The position numbers and the translations under genes are program-made. This document shows, piece by piece, positions 16,301 through 26,098 of a stretch of 64,000 nucleotides of DNA (position 1 is the stretch's first letter; every line of letters starts with the position of its first letter). This DNA is from Ruegeria sp. R14_0 (GTDB lineage Bacteria; Pseudomonadota; Alphaproteobacteria; Rhodobacterales; Rhodobacteraceae): assembly GCF_017743975.1 (NCBI RefSeq), contig NZ_JAGHRC010000001.1, positions 372,001 through 436,000 of the forward strand. The letters run 5' to 3'. A model generated the notes under the pieces. That model did no database searches. It was not told the origin of the DNA and saw only the letters and a list, made by a program, of their open reading frames with translations.

Positions 16301-16798
16301 ATGAGTATGGAAATGCAGGTCTCCGCGCCGGGAACCAAAGGGTTCATGACCAGCTACCTTGAGGCGCTTGCGCTCGTGGAACGGCTACACCGGCTGCTTT
16401 TGGACGTGATCAAGGATGAATTCGAGCGGGTCGGCGTGTTGGAAATCAACGCTGTTCAGGCGTTGTTATTGTTCAATATTGGCGATCACGAAGTGACCGC
16501 TGGCGAGCTGAAAAGCCGGGGCTACTATCAAGGCAGCAACGTCAGCTACAACCTGAAAAAGCTGGTCGAAATGGGCTATATGCACCACCAGCGGTGCGAG
16601 ATCGACCGACGGTCGGTGCGCGTACGATTGACGCCCCGCGGGCGCGAAATTCGTGACATCGTCTCCGAGCTGTTTTCGCGTCATGCCGAGGGGTTGCAAT
16701 CCCGCGGTGTATTGGGCCTGGAAGGCATTGACGACATCACCACCTCGCTGCGGCGGGTCGAGCGGTACTGGACGGATCAAATCCGCTATATCTACTGA
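16301..16798 (+). CDS. MarR-family winged-helix regulator
   Basis: A 165-residue MarR-type regulator. LEINAVQALLLFNIGDHEVTAGELKSRGYYQGSNVSYNLKKLVEMGYM is the winged-helix DNA-binding domain (read as adjoining segments), with the wing around CEIDRRSVRVRLTPRG. The LKSRGYYQGSNVSYN recognition helix resembles the alphaproteobacterial LdtR-type group, a comparison from memory. GGAGGG precedes ATG 16301. Its last seven bases overlap the convergent DUF1194 gene. Ligand and targets are unknown. Confidence 0.8.
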   Translation: MSMEMQVSAPGTKGFMTSYLEALALVERLHRLLLDVIKDEFERVGVLEINAVQALLLFNIGDHEVTAGELKSRGYYQGSNVSYNLKKLVEMGYMHHQRCEIDRRSVRVRLTPRGREIRDIVSELFSRHAEGLQSRGVLGLEGIDDITTSLRRVERYWTDQIRYIY

Positions 16799-20968: not shown

Positions 20969-21337
20969 ATGCGCAATGCATCCATGATTTTAGGCGTCAT
21001 TGCCGGGTTGATCGGAATGATCGTCGGCTTCTTTGGCTATGGCTATATCGCGTTCATAGACACCTATGGCGAAATCGAAGGGCTGGCCGAACAGGTGGAC
21101 AACGCTCAATTCATCCAGGCGGCGTCCATTGTCGCCCCACTGTTGGCCGTTGCCGGAGGTGCGATGGCCCACGCGCGGGCGTTGATTGGTGGTATCTTGC
21201 TGCTGATCTCTGCCGTTGGGATGTATTTCGCGTTCGGCTTCAACGCCTTCACGATGTTCCCGGTGGCCTTTGCCGCGGTGGCGGGTCTCCTTGGGCTGGC
21301 CGCAGGTAAACCGGACGAGCCCAAGGCACATTTTTAA
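20969..21337 (+). CDS. Small membrane protein, function unknown
   Basis: A 122-residue protein with three or four hydrophobic segments: MILGVIAGLIGMIVGFFGYGYIAF, IVAPLLAVAGGAMA, LIGGILLLISAVGMYFAF and FPVAFAAVAGLLGLAAG. A short soluble loop between the first two contains GEIEGLAEQVDNAQF. I do not recognise the family. It follows the ArsC-like gene by 39 bases on the same strand and may be cotranscribed. Confidence 0.65.
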   Translation: MRNASMILGVIAGLIGMIVGFFGYGYIAFIDTYGEIEGLAEQVDNAQFIQAASIVAPLLAVAGGAMAHARALIGGILLLISAVGMYFAFGFNAFTMFPVAFAAVAGLLGLAAGKPDEPKAHF

Positions 21338-21338
21338 T

Positions 21339-21866
21339 TCACTTGATACGCAGGATCCGGTCCACCGACAGTGGGCCGGCACCGTTGATCACGATCACCA
21401 ACAGCACAAAGGTCCAAAGCGTACGTTGATCCAGCACGTTTGGCGCTGCGGTGAGATAGCTGCCGAGCGCCGCACCGTGACCGGTGACATCCACGATGGT
21501 TTGAACCCAGACAAAGGCGATCATGCCCAGCGCGGCAAAGCGCGACAGCAGGCCGATCACAATCAGCGCGGGCAGTAGGAATTCAGCCCATGTGCCCGCA
21601 ACCGCCACGGCCCAGTGGAAGATACCCAGCTGCGAGCTGTCATAGCTGACCGCCTCCATCGCTTTGGGAAAGATCTGAACATACGCCCCGTCTGACGGGA
21701 ACAGGAACCCGAAGAAGCCGCTGCCCAGCTTGGTCATGGCCGAGTTCCAGTAATAAACCAGCAGTGTCCCGATAAAGACCAGACGCGCCAGGGTCGGTGT
21801 CAACCAGCCAGAGGTCACGTCCAACCGTCCCAGGGTGTTGTTGTGCAATGAGATCAGGGCAGTCAT
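21339..21866 (-). CDS. DoxX-family membrane protein of the bufferin operon
   Basis: A 175-residue DoxX-type inner-membrane protein with four hydrophobic segments (LARLVFIGTLLVYYW, FHWAVAVAGTWAEFLLPALIVIGLL, FAALGMIAFVWVQTIVDV and TLWTFVLLVIVINGAG). It is the last gene of a four-gene operon; its ATG overlaps the stop of the DUF2063 gene (ATGA). DoxX members accompany DUF692/DUF2063/DUF2282 genes in the described gig and bufferin clusters, where they are presumed to take part in export or redox steps; the exact role is not established. Confidence 0.8.
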   Translation of the reverse strand: MTALISLHNNTLGRLDVTSGWLTPTLARLVFIGTLLVYYWNSAMTKLGSGFFGFLFPSDGAYVQIFPKAMEAVSYDSSQLGIFHWAVAVAGTWAEFLLPALIVIGLLSRFAALGMIAFVWVQTIVDVTGHGAALGSYLTAAPNVLDQRTLWTFVLLVIVINGAGPLSVDRILRIK

Positions 21867-22624
21867 GTTGCCAGCCTTTCGATAGTCACAGAAGTTATTG
21901 CGCCGCCCTGCAAAAGCAGCGCCAGAGTGGCCCCCAGATCAAATTCGGGGAATTCGGCCGAGGTGTGTTCGAACGCCTCGCCAATGGTGTGCCCGGCCTG
22001 AACGTGCGCGATCCAGTCGGCTCCGCCCTTGGGCATCAGGTGTGGGGCTGGATCATAGTCGGGCCGCGTGATCAAAACGTCTTCGGCACCTGGCGCGGGT
22101 TTTGGTGCATCCTCTTCCGAGTTGAAGCGCCAGATCGAGAACAAAGGCCAGTCAGATCGCACCACTCGCATTGATGGCGCAAATTCCAGTTTCGCCAGAA
22201 CGATTTCTTCCGGGGGCAGGGCCAGTGCGTCAGGTGCGACCCCCTGGCTGTCCGCAGCGTGGTAGGATCGGCGCAGCGCCAGTTCCAGTCGTGCGACATC
22301 TGCGAGATAACCAATATGGGAAAGCTGCTCCATCCCGGCAAGAAACGCGGGGAATTCCTCGCCATAGAACATCATCAGCGGCGATGAAGGAGGATGTTTG
22401 CGCAGGAAAATCCCGGCCAGGCCGTCCATGTTCTGTGGTCCCAGAAGGCGCGTAATCACCGGAAAGGCTTGGTGCATGGCCTCGGTCAGAGATACGGCCA
22501 CATTGTTGCGATACACGCTGAACCGGCGTCCCGCGGGCCGATCTTCAGCATCCAGCAGGCCGTCTGGCACGGCGGCCGACGGGTCCAGCAGGGCCTCATG
22601 GAAGGTCGTCTGCGAAACGCTCAT
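21863..22624 (-). CDS. bufC: DUF2063 (HvfC/BufC-type) partner of an MNIO enzyme
   Basis: A 253-residue protein with the DUF2063 N-terminal domain ([47 protein letters not shown]). It is the usual partner of DUF692/MNIO enzymes and is thought to present the RiPP precursor to the enzyme. ATG 22624 overlaps the bufB stop (ATGA); a longer frame to 22705 is unsupported. The overlaps with both neighbours imply coupled translation and stoichiometric production with the enzyme. Confidence 0.85.
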
Positions 22625-23478
22625 GCCGGGATGCGGTCCAGGGCCGCCTGTGCACGCTCGGCTTCGGCCCGCAGAATGGGCCATTCGGGAACATCCGTGT
22701 CCCATTCAATCAAGACAGGCTTGGGGCCGGAGCGGTCCAGAACATAATCCAGCAAGGCCCAGACCGGATCGACGACCTCGCGTCCGTGGCTGTCAATCAG
22801 AAGGGGACGGCCATGGTCATCTTCGTCCTCATCATGACCACCAAGGTGGATTTCGTGGACGTTTTCCAGCGGGTAGGCGTCGATGTAACCTTGCGGTGAG
22901 AACTCAAGATTGGTCGCTGAGACGAAGACATTGTTCACGTCCAGTAACAGACCACAGCCCGTCCGCCGCGCGATTTCCCGCAGGAAGTCAGGCTCGGACC
23001 ATGTGCTTTCCTCAAACGCCAGATAGCTGGAGGGGTTTTCCAGCAACATCTGCCGTCCAACGGTTTCCTGCACCTGATCGATGTGTTCACAGACCCGGGC
23101 CAGTGTCTCATCGGTGTTGGGCAGGGGCAGAAGATCGTTCAGAAAGTGACTGTCATGGGTCGACCAGGCCAAATGCTCTGAAAAGCTGGCCGGATTCAGC
23201 CAGCCAACCAAGTGTTTCAGGCGGGAAAGATGATCGGGGTCCAGCGGTCCTTCTCCGCCAATAGAGAGGCCGACGCCGTGGACCGAGATCGGAAACTGTT
23301 CAGAAAGGTGGCGCAGCTGTGCAAGCGGTCTGCCCCCGTCACCCATATAGTTCTCGGCGTGTATTTCCAGCCAGCCGACGGGGTGTGCGTGATCCAGAAT
23401 CTGGTCAAAATGCTGCGGTTTGTACCCAACCCCTGGTGCGGCGGGCAATCTGTTCGATCGAAGTGAACTATCCAGCAT
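22621..23478 (-). CDS. bufB: DUF692 multinuclear iron oxidase (MNIO, BufB-type)
   Basis: A 285-residue DUF692 protein of the TIM-barrel MNIO family that includes MbnB of methanobactin biosynthesis and BufB. These enzymes use two or three iron atoms and oxygen to modify cysteines of a peptide. Candidate iron ligands are in [56 protein letters not shown] and [12 protein letters not shown] 23478 follows GGAGGA; the TTG at 23484 is too close to the ribosome-binding site. The upstream precursor gene is separated by a hairpin. Confidence 0.9.
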
Positions 23479-23501
23479 GTGCAAATCCTCCGGTCACGAA
23501 A

Positions 23502-23527
23502 AGGGGCGGGCGATAGGGCCCGCCCCT
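23502..23527 (-). other. Intercistronic hairpin between bufA and bufB
   Basis: A perfect 10-bp stem AGGGGCGGGC / GCCCGCCCCT with a 6-nt loop. On the minus strand it follows bufA by about 20 bases and is trailed by TTTTCG. It looks like a leaky terminator or stabiliser that would give more precursor transcript than enzyme transcript. Confidence 0.7.
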
Positions 23528-23548
23528 CCGAGTCTCAGACACTTGGGC

Positions 23549-23836
23549 TTATGCCGGCAGGTCGCGGTCCAGAGGCTCGAGCGAGCCTTTGCGGTTGTCC
23601 GGCAGTTCGATATCCGCGCAGGTGCCAGCGTCGACCAGAGTCCAGGCGTTGCCCTGGTAATCTACGGTCGATGTGCCAGCGCAAGTGGTGCCGGGGCCAG
23701 CGGCACAGTCGTTCTGACCGGCCAGCGATACGCCATAGCACTTTTCTTTGGCTTGTGCGGATGCAGTGGTTGCAACGCCCGAAACGGCGGCTGCGACTGC
23801 GCTTGCGATAACCAGGGATTTTGCGGTTTTCGACAT
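23549..23836 (-). CDS. bufA: DUF2282 bufferin-type RiPP precursor
   Basis: A 95-residue DUF2282 protein. Residues 1-27 are a signal peptide ending TTASA. The mature part has four cysteines, at residues 33 (KEKCYGV), 44 (NDCAAG), 52 (TTCAGT) and 73 (GTCADI), with the family block [15 protein letters not shown] and a DYQGNAW segment. In the described Caulobacter bufferins, cysteines of such precursors are turned into thiooxazoles by the MNIO enzyme and the product binds copper in the periplasm. ATG 23836 follows AAAGGA. It is the first gene of the operon. Confidence 0.88.
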
Positions 23837-24007
23837 CTCGGTAATCCTTTTGATAACTGCGTATGTCTGCTTGTGACACTGACAAAGGTAGTCGCTTAAC
23901 TGGGGCAGGTGAATTCACGAGCCCGTGTCTCACAACCCCGTCAAAGAGCGTAATGCCCTCTTGAAGGTTAACAAATTGTTTTTGAATTGAAAAATGGAAA
24001 ATGTTTC

Positions 24008-24057: not shown

Positions 24058-26001
24058 TTACAGAAGGTCCGGTGGCGTTGCCGCCTGCGCCAGCTCTTTT
24101 GTTACAGCCTCAAGCGATTGAACCTGCGTCTGTTTTTCGCCCAAGCGCCGAACACTGACAGTACGCTCGTCAACTTCGCGGTGACCGACGGCCAGAATAA
24201 CCGGCACTTTGCTCAACGAATGCTCGCGAACCTTGTAGTTGATCTTTTCGTTGCGAATGTCCGCTTCGGCCTGCACGCCAGCCTCTTTCAGAGTCTTGAC
24301 GACTTCGGCCACATACTCATCAGCCTCCGAGGTGATCGAGGCAACCACAACCTGACGCGGTGCCAGCCAGAAGGGCAGTTTGCCTTCCCAGTTTTCGATC
24401 AGGATACCGATGAACCGTTCCAGAGATCCAAACAGCGCCCGGTGCAGCATTACTGGAGCTAGTTTCTCGCCCGACTGACTGACATAGGTCGAGCCGAAAC
24501 GCTCTGGCAGGTTATAGTCGACCTGCAAGGTGCCACACTGCCAGTCACGACCGATGGCATCGCGCAAGACATATTCCAGCTTGGGACCATAGAACGCGCC
24601 TTCGCCTTCGAAGATCGTGTAGTTCATCCCAGCCCGATCTAACGCGGTTTTCAACGCGCCTTCGGACAGATCCCAGCTTTCATCGCTGCCAATCCGGTTC
24701 TCAGGACGGGTCGACAGTTTGACGTGCACATCTTCGAAGCCAAAGTCCTTGTAGATCGACAGGATCAGGTCGTTAACCTTCAGACACTCATCGGTCAGCT
24801 GTTCCGGCGTGCAGTAAATATGCGCATCGTCCTGGGTAAAGCTGCGCACGCGCAGCAGACCATGTAGCGCGCCCGAGGGTTCATACCGGTGCACCTTGCC
24901 AAACTCGGCGATCTTCATCGGCAACTCGCGATAGCTACGCAGGCTATGATTATAGATCATCATGTGGCCAGGGCAGTTCATCGGCTTGAGCGCATAGTCG
25001 CGATCGTCATGCGTCTTTGCGAGGAACATGTTGTCCATATAGTTGAACCAGTGACCCGAGGTTTCCCACAGCGCGCGGTCCATGATGTCAGGCGTGTTCA
25101 CCTCGACATAGCCCGCGGCTTCCTGACGGCGGCGCATATAGGCGATCAGGTTCTGGAACACACGCCAGCCGGCAGGGTGCCAGAAGACTGACCCCGGTGC
25201 ATGTTCTTCAAAATGGAACAGGTCCATTTCGCGGCCCAGTTTACGGTGGTCGCGTTTGGCTGCCTCTTCCAGCATGTGCAGGTGCGCCTTGAGCTTTTCC
25301 TTGCCGGTGAAGGCCACGCCGTAGATGCGTTGCAGCATTGGGCGGTTGCTGTCACCACGCCAATAAGCGCCAGCAACGGACATCAGCTTGAACGCGTCGC
25401 CTGGCAATTGGCCGGTATGCTGCAGGTGCGGACCGCGGCACAGGTCCTGCCAGTGGCCATGCCAGTACATGCGCAGGGGCTCATCACCCGGAATGGATTC
25501 GATCAGCTCGACCTTGTAGGGCTCGTTGTTGGCCTTGTAGAACTCGATCGCGCGGTCGCGCTCCCAGACCTCGGTGGTGACGGGGTCGCGCTTGTTGATG
25601 ATCTCTTTCATCTTTTTCTCGATGAGACCGAGATCTTCGGGCGTGAACGGTTCGGCGCGGTCAAAGTCATAATACCAGCCGTAGTCAATGACGGGGCCGA
25701 TGGTGACCTTGGTTGCAGGCCAGATTTCCTGCACGGCACGCGCCATGACATGCGCCAGATCGTGGCGGATCAGCTCATTGGCTTGCTCTTCGTCCTTCAT
25801 GGTGTGGATGGCGATTTGCGCGTCGGCCTCGATGGGCCATTGCAGGTCCCAGTGCTGGCCGTTCACCGTGGCAGAAATGGCCTTCTTGGCCAGCGAAGTT
25901 GAAATATCGGCAGCCACCTGCGCGGGCGTGACGCCTGCGTCATAGGATCGGGAATTGCCATCGGGGAAGGTGAGTGAGACGGATTGTGAATCCAGGGCCA
26001 T
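24058..26001 (-). CDS. thrS: Threonyl-tRNA synthetase
   Basis: A 647-residue class II aminoacyl-tRNA synthetase. In order: TGS domain (residues 1-65), the second additional domain with [16 protein letters not shown] (the H-x3-H editing site) and CRGPHL, the catalytic core with [24 protein letters not shown] and [17 protein letters not shown] (motif 3), and the anticodon-binding domain. ATG 26001 (MALDSQSV) is preceded by GGAGAG; the ten extra residues upstream are not conserved. Confidence 0.97.
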
Positions 26002-26098
26002 ATCGGCTCTCCTCGTCGGTTTGGCGCCCACTGAACGCCCGGTTGCGGGTCATTTGCGTTCGACCCATGTGGCAGGTGGTTGGGTATGTGTCAAGGGC

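Follow-up and report, generated by a model that had tools for sequence, protein, structure and literature searches.

The 64,000-nucleotide stretch of Ruegeria sp. R14_0 analysed here (hereafter the window; contig NZ_JAGHRC010000001.1, positions 372,001 to 436,000) carries on its minus strand, from 21339 to 23836, a complete four-gene bufferin operon, bufA-bufB-bufC-bufD, as read from its open reading frames (ORFs) and their translations. The gene set is that of a Buf1 bufferin operon, chromosomal and of a known kind, in a Ruegeria; what looks new is not this gene set but the control of the operon. A 31-bp near-palindromic element, TGACGGGGTTGTGAGACACGGGCTCGTGAAT, stands before bufA here and in most bufA-carrying genomes of the family, mostly in genomes without NrsF, so that it would give the same operon a second mode of control. 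The overall explanation that we regard as probable combines a Buf1 copper-peptide operon, an activator-type element and a ratio of precursor to enzyme set by a hairpin. The features concerned are the following.

23913..23943, minus strand: near-palindromic promoter element of 31 bp, proposed activator site, starting 107 nt before the bufA ATG (alignments, pattern and weight-matrix searches)
23885..23890, minus strand: -10-like hexamer TACCTT, at offset 53 from the element start (TAnnnT spacing in relatives)
23549..23836, minus strand: bufA, Buf1 (DUF2282) bufferin precursor of 95 residues with a Sec-like signal peptide and Cys 33/44/52/73 (ORF, Pfam, alignment; signal peptide by eye)
23500..23529, minus strand: GC-rich hairpin of 12 pairs with a 6-nt loop, between the bufA stop and the bufB start (folding against shuffles, relatives)
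22621..23478, minus strand: bufB, MNIO maturase of 285 residues (Pfam, NCBIfam, alignment, structure model)
21863..22624, minus strand: bufC, DUF2063 partner protein of 253 residues (ORF, Pfam)
21339..21866, minus strand: bufD, DoxX-like membrane protein of 175 residues (Pfam just below cut-off; four homologues above)
24058..26031, minus strand: thrS, threonyl-tRNA synthetase, anchor upstream of the locus and outside the system (Pfam, neighbour comparison)

A conserved element before bufA

The gap between thrS and bufA contains a well-kept block in the 46 aligned Ruegeria-level loci, this term denoting a BufB identity of at least 84% and taking in a few other genera. In 51 loci below 84% BufB identity the block reads T-n-ACG-N4-YGTGA-N2-CACR-N4-YGTGA-n-T, with spaced near-invariant letters, and by eye its two sides mirror each other, four ACG/CGT half-sites spanning 29 bp. 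Conservation is also high at an AC dinucleotide 8 nt upstream, at 23950-23951 (A in 46 and C in 45 of the 51 distant loci), which is perhaps part of a further half-site.

The family, taken as Rhodobacteraceae from the named relatives, was searched in 198 genomes. With at most two mismatches the pattern occurs in 93 of them (105 matches listed), as against six matches in five genomes for the reversed pattern, and, judged by coordinates, it stands before bufA in 81 of the 140 genomes having DUF2282. A weight matrix, constructed without L133 (contig cut upstream) and applied without G158 (contig end), added 14 of the remaining 59, all scoring above the largest of 1180 shuffled scores (the shuffles preserving base composition only), to give 95 of 140. 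Among the named loci, with 400 nt considered on each flank, the element is found upstream of bufA in 79/79, upstream of thrS in 0/78 and after bufD in 0/79; 50 of these loci had trained the matrix, and their share of the 79/79 is not independent. When 30 element loci were fetched, the element was before bufA in 26, between bufA and bufB in one (L161) and elsewhere in three. The genome of L161 (G123; L161, L243) has two copies, a strong one separating bufA from bufB and, before bufA, a weaker one (15.3). Six of the 93 genomes have matches at two different places.

In the window's own genome the Ruegeria core of the element is a single copy within three mismatches; the general pattern is matched at the bufA site, on either strand, and at a single further site with three mismatches, the reversed control pattern giving one match per strand at the same stringency. 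A regulon could not be read from the element, given its single genomic copy and a lone other site at control level. Outside the family the pattern is matched in 15 of 187 genomes, always with two mismatches, compared with 12 of 190 for the reversed pattern in a class-wide control. One of the 15 (G039, which is L072) has the match before bufA. Of the nine loci taken from other families (L068-L076), none but L072 has a clear element, and none, among the matches listed, has a thrS match.

No title or abstract opening among the matches listed names such an element in the literature on bufferins, their domains, NrsF/SigF and Rhodobacteraceae; the words "regulator" and "terminator" are absent from the main text of PMC12452194 (word search), and Rfam gives nothing above the gathering score between 20000 and 26500.

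Probable absence of sigF-NrsF control

Buf1 clusters contain sigma-factor and NrsF genes, according to passages of PMC12452194. In Caulobacter vibrioides, as described in parts of PMC3511200, the Buf1 operon (CC3254-CC3257) has the same order of DUF2282 precursor, DUF692/MNIO, DUF2063 and DoxX genes as that of Ruegeria, adjoins sigF (CC3253) and nrsF (CC3252) and is under sigF control via a GTAACC-N16-CGAA promoter. The likeness extends to BufB, the Ruegeria protein passing the NCBIfam BufB cut-off. Unlike Caulobacter, Ruegeria has a different element before bufA, and NrsF was not found in its genome.

The search for NrsF gave no match in the Ruegeria genome itself (completeness 100, 26 contigs) with a procedure that detected the Caulobacter control and that did not include extracytoplasmic function (ECF) sigma factors; the best match to a GTAAC-N17-CGAA-type promoter in the 400 nt before the window bufA falls within the terminal part of thrS and has two mismatches. 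With no NrsF match and no such promoter before bufA, sigF-NrsF control was rejected for this genome, and transcription of bufABCD would be independent of this system. The preliminary description had found no metal-sensing regulator or metal exporter nearby; its first part stands in so far as no SigF/NrsF cassette adjoins, as read from the ORF lists of approximately 10000-38000 (unannotated individually), exporters not having been searched. Its suggestion that the inducing signal may differ from known cases, formerly based on these absent neighbours, now gains indirect support from the different conserved element before bufA.

In the family NrsF exceeds its cut-off in 28 of 198 genomes (29 at the E-value limit, the extra one being G189), its absence being uncertain in incomplete genomes. 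Where NrsF lies within 6 kb of bufA (16 cases) the GTAAC-N17-CGAA promoter is exact in 10 and within one mismatch in 13; where NrsF is elsewhere in the genome (five cases) it is exact in one and within one mismatch in one; among 38 bufA without NrsF it is exact in none and within one mismatch in two, the same as in shuffles. NrsF over the cut-off is found in one of the 95 element genomes (G215, on another contig) compared with 21 of the other 45 (Fisher p 1.4e-11), or, leaving aside the weight-matrix cases, in 1/81 compared with 21/59 (p 1.7e-8), p-values that overstate the number of separate events, related genomes not being independent.

Besides this dependence, several observations weigh against the overall explanation. 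An NrsF match below the threshold (20.6 bits, two internal stops) occurs in G189, a weight-matrix genome, the looser count becoming 2/95, and one of 97 element-type loci (BufB at least 70%) has an exact GTAAC-N17-CGAA. Of the 105 listed element matches 19 have positions that do not precede a bufA, the one in G123 falling between bufA and bufB, and six genomes devoid of bufA carry a match. Furthermore, both the element and NrsF over the cut-off are missing from 24 of the 140 bufA genomes (e.g., L227, L240, L259; G158 untestable), so that other modes must exist and a third mode of bufA control in the family is likely. Finally, no experiment on the Ruegeria operon turned up in the literature searched.

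Two loci, L195 and L191, have a sigma factor and NrsF between thrS and bufA, followed by a BufB fragment ~80% identical to the window BufB over 125 and 76 residues, respectively. Since they carry a sigma/NrsF cassette where Ruegeria has the element, comparison of these sequences suggests that control was switched in place at the thrS-linked locus. We give an even chance to the more general proposition that in Rhodobacteraceae the thrS-linked operon was rewired, sigF-nrsF being lost and a dedicated factor recognising the near-palindrome, mostly once per genome and mostly before bufA. No such transcription factor turned up in the literature searched; if the proposition is true, marine bacteria perhaps have in this regulator a new sensor of copper or envelope stress. 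The exact 31-bp element offers a bait for it in a tractable marine genus, and L195 and L191 beside Ruegeria provide a natural one-locus comparison of a promoter changing its regulator.

Promoter architecture and readings of the element

In 35 of the 48 loci with a BufB identity below 84% a TAnnnT box stands at offset 53 or 54 from the element start, other offsets between 36 and 89 giving 0 or 1 each. In the window 22 nt separate the element from the -10-like box. An activator is favoured as the ligand because the element lies wholly upstream of this box and no -35 is evident, with sites that we infer to be centred about -44 and -59. Thus, transcription of bufA would start at a promoter having a -10-like box and no evident -35, and the activator would switch it on by binding two adjacent ACG-N4-CGT-type palindromes just upstream. 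Binding of an activator by the element is presumed, and it tells against this reading that the label "activator" is drawn from the position of the element and from nothing else.

That the element is instead the operator of a repressor released by a signal appears unlikely. Repressors commonly have palindromic double sites and are numerous among metal sensors; however, a site placed wholly upstream of the -10-like box, at a distance of 22 nt and with no -35, has the layout expected of an activator-dependent promoter.

Less credit still is due to the view of the element as the promoter of an alternative, ECF-type sigma factor, its upstream half serving as -35 and CGTGAAT as -10. ECF factors typically use two-block promoters of fixed spacing, and in relatives the operon adjoins an ECF-like sigma gene. 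On the other hand, the element is near-symmetric, with four half-sites over 29 bp, unlike the sigF promoter GTAACC-N16-CGAA (as given in part of PMC3511200), an additional TAnnnT box lies at a fixed distance downstream, and the own genome holds only one other site within three mismatches, which is at control level. Finally, it is hardly tenable that the element, without regulatory role, was kept merely through kinship and a short thrS-bufA gap, for although most element loci are thrS-linked and related genomes share sequence, in the 51 loci with a BufB identity below 84% the spaced positions are near-invariant between variable neighbours, the element is absent upstream of thrS (0/78) and after bufD (0/79), and it precedes bufA also in L162, L165, L177, L184 and L186, loci whose fetched 1.5 kb showed no thrS.

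One of the element matches away from bufA (L163) precedes an L,D-transpeptidase gene and a gene for an LdtR-like MarR regulator (16301-16798; 234.6 bits compared with a cut-off of 250) lies 4.5 kb from the operon, for which reasons LdtR was examined. The LdtR-like gene is near the operon in at least 37 of 125 loci, many stretches being too short to reach it. The LdtR model finds matches in 190 of the 198 family genomes, none over the cut-off and weak MarR matches included, and among them are genomes without bufA or with NrsF. The footprinted Liberibacter LdtR site is AT-rich (PMC3999280, in part), and by eye, in a comparison with this Liberibacter site alone, the element is unlike the LdtR site ATATTCCTTGTATTTTAA. 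LdtR is thus not supported as the regulator of the element, its model matching regardless of bufA and NrsF and the Liberibacter site being AT-rich. The ORFs between thrS and bufA in six loci include no obvious shared regulator, as judged by eye with no family search.

Gene families, enzyme and product

Profile searches of the four proteins bore out the bufferin-type gene set of the preliminary description, with its MNIO enzyme, DUF2063 partner and DoxX-like protein. In Pfam, BufA matches DUF2282 with 87.2 bits (cut-off 22.4), BufB matches MbnB_TglH_ChrH (DUF692/MNIO) with 349.1 bits (cut-off 25) and BufC matches DUF2063 with 85.2 bits (cut-off 27.2). The assignment of BufD is weakened by a DoxX score of 22.8 bits, slightly below the cut-off of 23.6, which four of four bufD homologues tested exceed (26.0-32.7 bits). 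In NCBIfam, BufB matches the BufB equivalog NF050167 with 377 bits (cut-off 310), BufA matches none of the models, and BufC and BufD match HvfC and HvfX, both below cut-off. For bufB the ATG at 23478 (285 residues) was preferred to a TTG at 23484, two codons upstream (287 residues). The ATGA four-base overlaps previously ascribed to the operon are present at bufB/bufC and bufC/bufD; bufA and bufB are separated by a gap of 70 nt.

The ten residues of BufB that we take to be its metal site, partly from alignment and partly from general knowledge of the family (H67, H102, E147, D180, N182, N183, H211, D229, H231, E258), are present in 106 of 107 aligned BufB and invariant in the 42 sequences of a second alignment. 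In HvfB, part of PMC13419390 reports that activity is abolished when N175, D242 or H244 is replaced; the asparagines of the LDVNN motif together with D229 and H231 of BufB are taken as the probable counterparts of these residues and are intact. A DUF692 protein lacking the iron ligands had earlier been named as evidence that would refute the bufferin assignment; since the putative metal-site residues are all conserved in BufB, the assignment is not refuted on this count.

A single-sequence fold of BufB had a predicted local distance difference test score (pLDDT) of 38.5, and a model built from 42 aligned sequences (pLDDT 84.5) was used in its place. Its nine best PDB matches are 3BWW (TM score 0.76 by query length, root-mean-square deviation, rmsd, 2.3) and chains of TglHI and MbnB (TM 0.69-0.76, rmsd 5.0-5.5), so that the comparison with MbnB proposed at the outset places the model in the MNIO fold; the sequence also matches solved MNIO chains, with the metal-site residues aligned. 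From sequence and model BufB is, as far as can be predicted, an MNIO enzyme with the fold and metal-site residues of the family. The genome search returned one MNIO gene and one DUF2282 gene, which therefore form an unambiguous pair of enzyme and substrate.

Other MNIO systems resemble this one to varying degrees. The gig operons of Cupriavidus metallidurans and Legionella pneumophila are counted as bufferin biosynthetic gene clusters in passages of PMC12452194; they are named for gold induction, and the Ruegeria data bear on no gold role. The captophorins (fontiphorin, oxazolin, gonophorin) have in common an MNIO with a PME1 partner and 5-thiooxazoles (PMC13097082, in part), whereas their precursors have EGKCG repeats and that of Ruegeria is a DUF2282 protein; BufB scores 229.7 bits with the HvfB profile (cut-off 360). 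Methanobactin MbnABC shares the MNIO fold (TM 0.69-0.70 by query length) and the metal-site residues align; it differs in serving copper acquisition and, as stated in passages of PMC12452194, in its oxazolone-thioamide chemistry and want of a Sec signal peptide, and BufB gives only 52.2 bits with the MbnB profile (cut-off 325).

The signal-peptide precursor with four cysteines proposed earlier is confirmed as to the cysteines, each of which is kept in 95 of 96 aligned precursors; the first 29 residues resemble a Sec signal by eye. Modification in Buf1 affects the central cysteines, the outer pair being joined by a disulphide, and the published bufferins are exported by Sec and keep copper sequestered within the periplasm (PMC12452194, in part); 5-thiooxazoles are reported in related products and also assigned to bufferin 1 (PMC13097082, in part). 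By analogy the Ruegeria product should be a periplasmic copper buffer, and the peptide would not be secreted as first supposed, published bufferins acting in the periplasm (PMC12452194, in part). In the pathway envisaged, whose chemistry, export and copper role come from the literature, BufC would present the signal-peptide precursor BufA to BufB, which would oxidise Cys44 and Cys52 to thiooxazoles; Cys33 and Cys73 would form a disulphide, Sec would export the modified peptide to buffer excess copper in the periplasm, and BufD would be an accessory membrane protein.

It is not very probable that the peptide serves another metal or stress instead of copper. The operon is regulated unlike the known case, MerC-bufferin fusions point to other metals (PMC12452194, in part) and Caulobacter sigF responds to chromium and cadmium (PMC3511200, in part); yet in its core gene set and in the four cysteines of its precursor the operon agrees with the copper-binding Buf1.

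The hairpin between bufA and bufB

The bufA-bufB hairpin of the window has a z of -2.58, three of 200 shuffles folding as well, and few T follow the stem. In a folding test of intergenic regions of 40-120 nt, duplicates removed, the bufA-bufB gap reaches z <= -2 in 38 of 43 Ruegeria-level loci and in 35 of the 48 other loci. For stretches of equal size within bufA and bufB the corresponding counts are 5, 1 and 9 of the 43 and 2, 2 and 2 of the 48; for stretches before bufA they are 1/43 and 6/48, and for those after bufD, where a terminator is expected, 30/43 and 15/48. The signal is seen in 0/3 loci below 70% identity, and the stems differ between genera.

The simplest reading is that the hairpin would act as a partial terminator or 3' stabiliser favouring the precursor message. 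It may in this way set the ratio of precursor to enzyme, keeping bufA mRNA above bufBCD mRNA. Three observations speak against a regulatory hairpin: the terminator scan does not list it, it is weak or absent in the Ruegeria loci L033, L037, L039 and L055, and compensatory changes are limited to two pairs, a count reached by 108 of 500 shuffles. The latter figure comes from 17 sequences hand-picked from the named Ruegeria loci and the window, omitting the weak-hairpin L096, L098, L100 and L101, in which 94% of the hairpin cells pair; covariation adds little because shuffles match the two-pair count and half of the pairs never vary.

Locus setting and distribution

The arrangement thrS-bufABCD recurs in 36/36 same-genus stretches, among the matches listed, and in 79 of the 80 named loci thrS, bufA and bufD were all matched within the stretch, so that the gene set is not a chance assembly. 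DUF2282 is found in 37/37 genomes of the genus searched and in 140/198 of the family, the closest named relatives being Ruegeria (BufB 96% identical in Ruegeria arenilitoris). The bufferin locus is here a stable chromosomal locus and not a mobile island.

The threonyl-tRNA synthetase (ThrRS; 24058-26031) is 95% identical to that of L053/L102 and, among the matches listed, ~75-80% identical to that of other Ruegeria, in which BufB is 85-96% identical despite the distant ThrRS (L043: BufA 100%, BufB 96%, ThrRS 80%); it is 86-93% identical to that of some other genera (L104, L108, L148, L155). These identities are consistent with two ThrRS types that may have been exchanged at one site. One record titled Nocardioides marinus (L140) has a Leisingera-like locus and is perhaps mislabelled or contaminated. 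Convergent with bufD, at 20969-21337, is a gene for a probably membrane-bound protein of 122 residues with no Pfam or NCBIfam match, which adjoins the operon in 36/36 same-genus stretches and many other loci, among the matches listed.

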